64,000 nt of DNA from Granulosicoccus antarcticus IMCC3135 (lineage in GTDB: Bacteria > Pseudomonadota > Gammaproteobacteria > Granulosicoccales > Granulosicoccaceae). The DNA is taken from positions 1,670,501 through 1,734,500 of the forward strand of contig NZ_CP018632.1 of assembly GCF_002215215.1 (NCBI RefSeq). The letters run 5' to 3'. Both the position numbers and the translations under genes were made by a program. Positions 47,485-49,875 of this stretch are shown here, piece after piece (position 1 is the first letter of the stretch; every line of letters begins with the position of its first letter). The notes under the pieces were generated by a model that searched no databases, was not told the DNA's origin, and saw only the letters and a list, made by a program, of their open reading frames with translations.

Positions 47485-47813
47485 TGGTGGGCCCGGCAGG
47501 ACTCGAACCTGCGACCAAGGGATTCACTTGTCCCGAACATTTCTGCACGGAGCGGACTATCTCATCACCCTCAATCGAAGTGACTGGTGGGGCGCGGGAA
47601 GCTCTAGCCTGTTATCAAGAACACTAAAGTTCTCAGGTAGTCTCTGCACCTTCCAAAGGTGTACCTTTGGCTTGGCTCAGGATTGCCATCAGCCTCAGTG
47701 ATTAACTGAGCTGTTAAGGTTTCCCTGAATTCATCCCGTTCATTTCATATCTTACGATATGAACGCACCATTTAAGATGAGTCCCCTGCTCTAACCAACT
47801 GAGCTACAGGCCC
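47485..47813 (-). tRNA. ileX: tRNA-Ile(CAU) gene, interrupted by a group I intron
   Basis: Minus strand. The 5' exon (47813-47777) runs from acceptor GGGCCTG through D arm AGCTCAGTTGGTTAGAGC to GGGGA-CTCAT; the 3' exon (47524-47485) runs from AA-TCCCT through T arm GCAGG-TTCGAGT-CCTGC and acceptor CGGGCCC to ACCA. Joined, all four arms pair fully (T6-G67 and G27-T43 wobbles) and the anticodon is CAT. The CAGG.GACTCATAATC.CTTGGTCG context resembles E. coli ileX, so the minor isoleucine tRNA needing TilS lysidine is more likely than elongator Met; Met is not excluded. CCA is encoded. A possible -10 (TAGAAT) is at 47825-47830. Confidence 0.92.
47525..47776 (-). ncRNA. Group I self-splicing intron (IC3-like) in the tRNA anticodon loop
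   Basis: 252 nt, inserted directly after anticodon position 36. Conserved elements in order on the minus strand: P near 47732-47711 (CAGGGAAACC), Q 47684-47669 (AATCCTGAGCCAAGCC), R 47650-47638 (GGTGCAGAGACTA) and S 47566-47554 (GATGAGATAGTCC). R and S can pair as P7 (GACTA/TAGTC). The upstream exon ends in T, the intron ends in G (47525), and a GTG near the intron start can pair with exon CAT with T.G at the splice site, as in the Azoarcus tRNA-Ile(CAU) intron. No homing endonuclease is encoded. Confidence 0.92.
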
Positions 47814-48060: not shown

Positions 48061-49875
48061 TTATTCCTGATTATCCAGAAAACTTCGCAGTTGCTCTGAA
48101 CGGGTAGGGTGACGCAGCTTGCGCAGAGCCTTGGCTTCGATCTGACGAATACGCTCGCGGGTTACATCGAACTGTTTGCCCACTTCCTCAAGGGTGTGGT
48201 CAGTGTTCATGTCGATACCAAAACGCATTCGCAGTACCTTGGCTTCACGAGGTGTGAGGCTGGCCAGTACTTCGTGGGTGGTTTCACCCAAGCCCAGGCC
48301 TGTGGCTGTTTCGACCGGAGACAGAATGTTGTTGTCTTCGATGAAGTCACCCAAATGGCTGTCTTCGTCATCACCGATTGGTGTTTCCATGGAGATGGGC
48401 TCCTTGGCGATTTTCAGCACCTTGCGGATCTTGTCTTCAGGCATTTCCATCTTTTCAGCCAGCTCTTCAGGCGTGGCCTCACGACCCATGACCTGCAGCA
48501 TCTGACGAGAGATACGGTTCAGCTTGTTGATGGTCTCGATCATGTGTACCGGAATACGAATGGTACGGGCCTGATCCGCGATAGAGCGGGTGATGGCCTG
48601 ACGAATCCACCAGGTAGCGTAGGTCGAGAACTTGTAACCACGACGATATTCGAACTTGTCGACAGCCTTCATCAGGCCAATGTTGCCTTCCTGGATCAGA
48701 TCGAGGAACTGCAGGCCACGATTGGTGTACTTCTTGGCAATCGAGATAACCAGTCGCAGGTTTGCTTCAACCATCTCTTTCTTGGCGCGGCGAGCTTTCG
48801 CTTCACCGATGGACATCTTGCGATTGATTTCCTTGATATCGGTAATCGGCAGCAAGCTACTGACACAGATTTGCTGAATACGAGTCTGCAGCAGTTCGAT
48901 CTCGGTACGACGCTCTTCCAAGGCCTTGGTGTAAGGCTTCTTGTTGCTGATGACAGAGTCCAGCCAGCCCGGATCTGTTTCGTGACCCGGAAAGCTCTGG
49001 ATAAACGCACTGCGTGGCATCTTGCATTGCTTGACACACATGTCACGAATCTGACGTTCCAGTGAGCGAATACGTTCTACCTGGCCACGCAATCCACCAA
49101 CTAGTGTGATTACGAAAGCGGGTGCGTATTTGAACTCGAGGAAAATGGCAGAAACCTGTTCCATCTCTTCCTTGCTGGCCGCATCCTGGATGCCACCGGC
49201 TGCGTCAATTGCCTTCAGCGCTTTGCCGTAGGCTTTCTGCATGGCCATCATGCGGCGCTGGATTTCTTCCATATCCGGGCCGGTGTCAACAACTTCATCG
49301 TCGTCATCATCGTCAGAAGGTGGCTTGGCAACCTTGATTTCTTCGGATGTCTCCGCGAAATTGATAATGATGTCCGTGAAGCGCAACTGCTCTTCCTGGA
49401 ATTGCTGATAGCGTTCCAGTAGCAGGTTGATTGTTTCAGGGTAAGTACCCAGAGCGCGCAGGACCTGCTTGAGGCCATCTTCGATGCGCTTGGCAATCTC
49501 GATTTCGCCTTCTCGGGTCAGGAGCTCAACGGTTCCCATTTCCCGCATGTACATGCGTACGGGGTCGGTTGTACGGCCGAACTCTCCGTCAACCGTGGCG
49601 AGCACGGCTGCTGCTTCATCCGCCGCATCATCATCGGCGCTGGAGTTTTTGTCGGAGAGAATCAGGGAGTCGGCTTCAGGCGCAACTTCGCCGACCGATA
49701 TGCCCATATCGGCAATCATTGCAATGATTTCTTCGACCTGTTCCGGATCAACTATCCCTTCAGGCAGATGGTCATTGACTTCGGCGTAAGTCAGGAAACC
49801 CTGCTCTTTCCCTTTTTTAATCAGTTCTTTCAGGCTGGACTGTTGGGACTTGTCCATTGCGATGCGAGCGGTCAT
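48061..49875 (-). CDS. rpoD: RNA polymerase primary sigma factor RpoD (sigma-70)
   Basis: 604 residues. Region 1.1 begins [25 protein letters not shown]; region 1.2 has [21 protein letters not shown]. Sigma non-essential region spans ~150-340 and has an Asp-rich segment. Region 2 holds [39 protein letters not shown] and ATWWIRQAI; region 3 [14 protein letters not shown]; region 4 [12 protein letters not shown] and [31 protein letters not shown] at about -8 supports ATG 49875; an ATG six codons in would match E. coli more closely. A TATAAT on the minus strand (49904-49909) is a likely -10. The usual dnaG neighbour is absent. Confidence 0.97.

Follow-up and report, generated by a model that had tools for sequence, protein, structure and literature searches.

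A P7.1-bearing group I intron splits the tRNA-Ile(CAU) gene of Granulosicoccus antarcticus

Introduction

How AUA codons are read in a bacterium whose only detected tRNA-Ile(CAU) gene is cut in two by an intron is the question raised by a short minus-strand locus of Granulosicoccus antarcticus IMCC3135. The locus occupies positions 47485-47813 of the window, the term used here for the whole 64-kb stretch of DNA that was analysed, and consists of a tRNA-Ile(CAU) gene in which a group I intron of 252 nt follows the anticodon. Group I introns are removed through two transesterifications, with a guanosine held in the P7 helix. Introns in tRNA-Ile2 were known earlier from Azoarcus, Acidovorax and Burkholderia, according to the available text of PMC8450103 and PMC4033280, and the Azoarcus pre-tRNA-Ile(CAU) intron, a member of group IC3, is a ribozyme template whose 197 letters, seven of them N, are printed in the accessible part of PMC8890501.

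The split gene and its boundaries

Read along the minus strand, the gene consists of GGGCCTGTAGCTCAGTTGGTTAGAGCAGGGGACTCAT, then 252 nt, then AATCCCTTGGTCGCAGGTTCGAGTCCTGCCGGGCCCACCA. The 5′ exon (47777-47813, 37 nt) comprises the acceptor strand, the D arm and the anticodon arm through CAU, and is identical to the corresponding part of an uninterrupted gene in a sister genome (G017). It is followed by the intron (47525-47776, 252 nt) and by a 3′ exon with an encoded CCA (47485-47524, 40 nt). The intron boundaries are set by empty sites, since in sister genomes the gene is uninterrupted and its halves abut exactly at CAT|AAT; the joined window exons match the G017 gene at 77/77 letters. The base before the intron is T and the last intron base G, while the first intron base is C and the first base of the second exon A, and because both pairs differ, the splice junction cannot be slid by one base.

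The Rfam group I model (Intron_gpI, RF00028) matches 47533-47789 over its whole length (1-253) with 66.7 bits (E 1e-14; cut-off 50). This is the sole match at Rfam gathering thresholds within the window, and RF00028 matches nowhere else in the genome, which consists of one contig of 7,783,862 bases (90/90 candidates scored). The first-pass annotation, made from the letters, had placed a group I intron directly after the anticodon of a tRNA-Ile(CAU) gene; on the minus strand, its exon and intron coordinates are correct, the covariance-model match covers the intron it predicted, and host gene and insertion point are borne out by the empty sites. The split gene with its group I intron is confirmed. 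Inspection of the reading frames found no homing endonuclease gene, the mark of a mobile group I intron, in the 252 nt, where the longest stop-free stretch is 58 codons.

The expectation that ordinary annotation would overlook such a gene was also correct: ARAGORN with default settings finds no tRNA in the window and detects 0/107 of the related split genes described below, which explains how tRNA-Ile(CAU) genes drop out of annotation. Given the joined window exons, the same program returns a cloverleaf with a CAU anticodon. Its intron mode names the locus tRNA-Gln(CUG), a call that was rejected, the intron being placed two bases off and without empty-site or splice-site evidence; the same name is given to 100 of the 107 relatives, and two others are called Met(CAU).

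Identity of the tRNA and AUA decoding

Only two other CAU tRNAs were found in the genome, L024 for the elongator Met and L040 for the initiator. An elongator or initiator identity for the split gene was rejected: both functions are encoded elsewhere, by genes each 52/77 identical to it. The split tRNA is distinct from both, and tilS is present (above the curated cut-off, in a 515-aa frame), as expected for a tRNA-Ile2. In tRNA-Ile(CAU), the pairs C4-G69 and C5-G68 are marks for TilS.

Three genome searches returned no second intact tRNA-Ile(CAU), in agreement with the earlier suggestion that this is the sole gene. With the tRNA family model, 35 matches came from 150/210 scored candidates, and this list is incomplete, tRNA-Ile(GAU) and tRNA-Ala(UGC) being missing from it. 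Using the complete uninterrupted gene as query returned ten matches (18/18 scored), the best two of which are the halves of the split gene. The third search used a longer CAU-tRNA pattern that caught the initiator and missed the elongator Met, whose T arm does not fit, as well as the split gene itself; a shorter pattern hit 384 places and was uninformative. A divergent second isoleucine tRNA or a tRNA-Ile(UAU) elsewhere in the genome is unlikely, with the proviso that the tRNA list is incomplete. ATA makes up 151 of 17758 codons in 38 mechanically defined window ORFs, not all of which need be genes. AUA decoding would then depend on splicing of the intron. If so, a presumably essential and apparently single-copy tRNA would be made only by way of a ribozyme, tying AUA reading to RNA catalysis.

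Structure of the intron

Relatives of the intron were collected by a scan with the 5′ exon and the guide (CATC plus GGTGCGT required), which returned 112 stretches. Genes were parsed on the condition that GGACTCAT precedes the intron and that G|AATCC spans the 3′ junction, with no requirement for the P7.1 hairpin described below; over all loci, this yielded 107 distinct genes with introns of 226-321 nt. From these, 48 rows with less than 89% identity were picked for diversity and aligned. A structure of 91 pairs, pseudoknot included, was drawn on the window intron, a procedure that favours the proposed pairing over slid versions; across the 48 relatives, 98.6% of 4357 structure cells are paired, compared with 32.6-46.9% in slid-partner controls. 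Thirty-six pairs changed on both sides (shuffled mean 24.2; 0/500 as high).

At the 5′ splice site, P1 (47766-47779) pairs the exonic CAU (47779-47777) and the first intron base, C1, with the guide GGUG (47769-47766), leaving a U.G wobble at the cleavage point; it is invariant in 48/48 rows and shows no covariation. P2 (47744-47763) is a hairpin with a GUAA loop of the GNRA type, all eight of whose pairs changed on both sides. The two strands of P3 (47732-47738 and 47595-47601) are paired in 99.4% of cells of the 48-row alignment, and a U-U mismatch in the window accounts for one of the two unpaired cells at P3 positions. The P4-P5 domain (47677-47728) is placed by the RF00028 match together with the alignment, and P6a (47653-47670) changed on both sides at six of seven pairs. 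P7, the guanosine-binding helix (47638-47642 with 47555-47559), is invariant in 48/48 rows, with 100% of its cells paired. P8 (47567-47593) is drawn from the same alignment, and P9 (47533-47550), capped by a GAAA loop, changed on both sides at six of seven pairs. In P9.0 (47525-47554), CGCU (47554-47551) pairs with AGUG (47528-47525), the last four bases of the intron; 99% of these cells are paired and one pair covaries between UA, GC and AU. In the window itself, P1, P4, P6, P7 and P7.1 are paired throughout. P1, P7 and the outer helix of P7.1 are neutral as covariation evidence because they never vary.

The P3-P7 pseudoknot core with the P, Q, R and S elements noted at first reading is present, and the U at the 5′ splice site, the terminal G and the GUG guide are all found in the window. 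In the relatives, the CAT before the intron and the terminal G add nothing, since the parser required both, and the GGTG found in 107/107 was a search criterion for many of them.

Between P7[5′] and P3[3′] stands a 30-nt hairpin (47608-47637) with a six-nucleotide bulge, URAUNA, on its 3′ side, here named P7.1 by its position. It follows the pattern CCUG-RGRRC ... GYYCU-URAUNA-CAGG directly after P7[5′], with the six-base bulge conserved and the tip sometimes longer. The core of this pattern is present in 107/107 distinct parsed genes. Contig ends truncate six of the 112 stretches; 103 of the remaining 106 fit the pattern, and the other three show the hairpin on reading. The outer helix is invariant and the inner helix covaries, one pair being GC in 25 and AU in 23 of the 48 rows. 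R1, a covariance model of the region built from 26 tRNA-Ile rows, matches 29 of 67 sources (the window and 66 loci of the class sample), namely 24 tRNA-Ile introns, one tRNA-Lys(CUU) intron and four tRNA-Thr(UGU) introns, the last weakly (21.6-28.5 bits). It has no match in the other 38, which include tRNA-Leu, tRNA-Arg, tmRNA and rRNA introns, a tRNA-Ile intron inserted before the anticodon (L139) and a truncated tRNA-Ile copy (L137). Among 398 genomes of the phylum sample, with 14 candidates scored per genome, R1 matched only the window's own genome; weak matches may be lost in such a search, and it did not recover G601, the genome of intron L283 with its Thr-like hairpin.

Introns of subgroup IA carry P7.1 and P7.2. 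The window intron shows one hairpin at this place, and no P7.2 was seen there. In the available text of PMC3984707, P7.1 and P7.2 are named as class features, while a P7.1 region is mentioned for tmRNA group I introns in the accessible part of PMC11915505, and P7.1 is therefore not new as such to bacterial group I introns. No earlier description of this P7.1-bearing lineage of tRNA introns was found in the open-licence literature searched. The hairpin may have a role in the ribozyme, and this form gives ribozyme studies a naturally occurring counterpart to set beside the Azoarcus model, at the same site and with the same guide.

Comparison with known tRNA introns

Like the Azoarcus intron, the window intron sits in tRNA-Ile(CAU), has a GUG guide after eight leader nucleotides and a CNU tag before the splice site, and shares the P3-P9 core with a GAAA-type L9; the guide rule is given in the available portion of PMC6274277. 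The two differ in other respects. The printed Azoarcus sequence runs straight on from P7[5′] (GACTAGACGGCACCC), joining it directly to P3[3′] without a P7.1, whereas 30 nt of hairpin intervene in the window. The 3′ end reads ACAAACCGG in Azoarcus, as printed, and ACAAGUG in the window, and the lengths are about 205 nt, including the eight leader nucleotides, and 252 nt, respectively.

Acidovorax and Burkholderia are Betaproteobacteria. The tRNAscan-SE 2.0 paper (PMC8450103), in its available text, attributes the missing fMet or Ile2 tRNA of 36 genomes to group I introns and names these two genera for tRNA-Ile2; by this description, their introns resemble that of the window in being of group I, in interrupting tRNA-Ile(CAU) and in being overlooked by a tRNA finder. 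The hosts given in the accessible parts of PMC4033280 and PMC11408192 are cyanobacteria, alpha- and betaproteobacteria, and the corresponding part of PMC5733544 describes cyanobacterial introns in tRNA-Arg, tRNA-Gly and tRNA-Lys, termed group I there, one of which is 49 nt long. The tRNA-Leu(UAA) and tRNA-Arg(CCU) introns are likewise small group I introns of the anticodon loop with a similar core, but they occupy other tRNAs and sites, and P7.1 is absent in the ones inspected. By its sequence, the window intron is best described as a widespread new P7.1-bearing form of the known tRNA-Ile2 intron type and not simply as the Azoarcus ribozyme.

Distribution and inheritance

In a sample of 48 genomes of the order, RF00028 matches occur in 21, and all 21 loci are tRNA-Ile(CAU). 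Eleven genomes have an uninterrupted gene (G003, G006, G016, G017, G018, G030, G031, G058, G064, G067 and G068), and no whole tRNA-Ile(CAU) was found in the other 16 (G001, G004, G005, G007-G011, G015, G021, G025, G026, G032, G034, G035 and G062), with 23 genomes searched for the uninterrupted gene. Some of these 16 are listed as at least 90% complete, and contigs end in the gene in G034 and also in G016; the missing genes perhaps reflect assembly breaks at mixed alleles, or are perhaps truly absent. In the class sample, at least 56 of 369 genomes have an RF00028 match, at least 41 of them above the cut-off, with at most five candidates scored per genome; as read from the flanks, 24 of the 369, spread over 17 family codes, carry an intron after the CAU of tRNA-Ile. 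Taxa represented among the matches listed (80 of 112) and in the rpoD tree include Woeseiaceae, Granulosicoccaceae, Thiohalobacter, Ectothiorhodospiraceae, Acidiferrobacteraceae and one member of the Nitrosomonadaceae. One copy of this tRNA-Ile intron, with an upstream rpoD match, lies on a contig titled Halobacteria archaeon (L176), which is probably a wrongly binned gammaproteobacterial contig.

The gene upstream of the tRNA in the window is rpoD (48061-49875, minus strand; NCBIfam NF004208, RpoD, 865.2 bits, cut-off 555). A same-strand upstream rpoD is found at 86 of the 107 intron loci; the other 21 comprise 12 with fewer than 600 bases upstream, two with rpoD elsewhere (L212 and L234) and seven with 1.4-7.6 kb that lack it. 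Uninterrupted genes adjoin rpoD too (15 of 17 loci fetched). Distances between introns correlate moderately with those between the adjoining rpoD genes (rho 0.358; 0/999 permutations as high; 0.217 for pairs with an rpoD distance above 0.15), and for 51 of 76 introns the closest other intron belongs to one of the five loci closest by rpoD (about 5 by chance). An rpoD tree was built for 76 intron loci (of the 107) plus 15 empty ones, which were not a random sample; it needs 13 gains or losses of the intron, hardly below the number for shuffled labels (mean 14.2; 102/500 as low). The intron seems to be old at the rpoD-tRNA-Ile locus, mostly inherited with it and often lost, and local transfers are possible.

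Proposed splicing and alternative readings

We consider it very probable, from the sequence comparisons, that the locus is expressed as a tRNA-Ile(CAU) precursor carrying a group I ribozyme of the P7.1 lineage, which would be spliced out to give the AUA-reading tRNA. The intron would fold with the anticodon CAU paired to the guide GGUG in P1 and with a U.G wobble marking the splice site; guanosine bound in P7 would cut after CAU, and the freed 5′ exon would attack after the terminal G, placed by P9.0, joining the tRNA halves. In the spliced tRNA, C34 would be converted to lysidine by TilS, allowing AUA to be read. Splicing in the cell, and self-splicing without protein, are both inferred on these grounds. 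As CAU would be held in P1 before splicing, we propose that TilS should act only afterwards.

The incomplete tRNA list (150/210 candidates scored) leaves some room for a dead gene, with an inactive intron and AUA read by another tRNA; yet the exons are fully intact, P1, P4, P6, P7 and P7.1 are fully paired, no other tRNA-Ile(CAU) was found, tilS is kept and ATA is in use, which makes this reading hardly credible. That the intron reached this genome recently as a mobile element is improbable, though less extremely so. It could account for the absence of the intron at the same locus in the close relatives L258 and L259, whose rpoD genes are 93-94% identical to that of the window, but the intron has no endonuclease gene, relatives have introns up to 94% identical in the same tRNA, and intron and rpoD distances correlate. 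Moreover, the smallest starred clade containing the window holds five intron rows and two empty rows grouped as sisters (94), for which one loss suffices.

The comparison with Azoarcus leaves a closer contest, in which the intron might be a plain IC3 member of the Azoarcus family with P7.1 as a trivial local extension. The first-pass annotation had matched the position and guide to the Azoarcus ribozyme, and this part stands: the tRNA, the site and the GUG guide are held in common. The likeness does not extend to the architecture, as the printed Azoarcus sequence lacks the hairpin and a tree of 39 cores, from which the P7[5′]-P7[3′] region was removed, separates 27 introns with the hairpin from 12 without it (split 100/95). 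In that tree, two Azoarcus-type introns group with two tRNA-Leu(UAA) introns (99/86, with long branches flagged), but a tree holding the post-anticodon tRNA-Ile introns and the two Azoarcus-type introns together is not rejected (p-AU 0.098). Its rows cover 21 of the 107 tRNA-Ile introns; two rows were left out, L087 was dropped because it nearly duplicates L084, and four rows (the window, L080, L082 and L084) have less sequence at the 5′ end than the others. With P7.1 in 107/107 relatives, its outer helix invariant and its inner helix covarying, we regard a plain Azoarcus-family intron as rather unlikely. A bolder form of the P7.1-lineage reading, which we put forward tentatively and hold to be possible but doubtful, is that these introns are an undescribed gammaproteobacterial lineage that reached the CAU site independently of Azoarcus and spread by re-matching of the guide (from CAU to UGU and perhaps CUU), and that the ribozyme gates both lysidine formation and mischarging with Met. 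Such gating would follow from P1 hiding the anticodon in the guide helix, so that only the spliced tRNA would be a substrate for TilS and MetRS.

Other introns in the samples

Four group I introns of the class sample (L082, L084, L087 and L090) interrupt tRNA-Thr(UGU) downstream of its anticodon, with a guide that reads as GCAA and matches UUGU; ARAGORN names the four genes Asp, His, His and Ser. They are predicted to fold a variant of P7.1 and fall on the same side of the core tree as the tRNA-Ile introns, but differ in host tRNA. A post-anticodon group I intron in tRNA-Lys(CUU) (L093) is predicted to have the same P7.1 fold as the tRNA-Ile introns and lies on the same side of the tree; its genome, G046, also has an uninterrupted tRNA-Ile(CAU) (L268). 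A different tRNA-Ile(CAU) group I intron, in G093 (L139), is inserted before the anticodon, at U33|C34 by reading, lacks P7.1 and scores 29.1 bits, below the RF00028 cut-off.

In the phylum sample, 34 of 398 genomes have RF00028 matches, at 36 places, and flanks were read at the window's own locus and at 29 others. By reading, one is a plain Azoarcus-type tRNA-Ile intron (L287), another is the tRNA-Ile(CAU) intron with the Thr-like hairpin (L283), and a third lies in tRNA-Arg(UCU) and has a hairpin at the P7.1 place (L276).

G036 holds, besides an intact intron locus (L086), a second tRNA-Ile 3′ exon with the 3′ half of an intron (L137/L308), whose match to L086 starts just after the P7.1 hairpin. 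No endonuclease was found there, the preceding ORF being just 74 aa and no GACTCATC occurring in the 3.6 kb fetched; the locus reads as a truncated copy.

Group I introns were also seen in the T loop of apparent tmRNA genes (L128, L130, L131, L138 and L140), a known kind according to the available text of PMC11915505. By their flanks, seven others lie in apparent 23S rRNA genes (L095, L102, L106, L108, L119, L135 and L141), some genomes having several close together.
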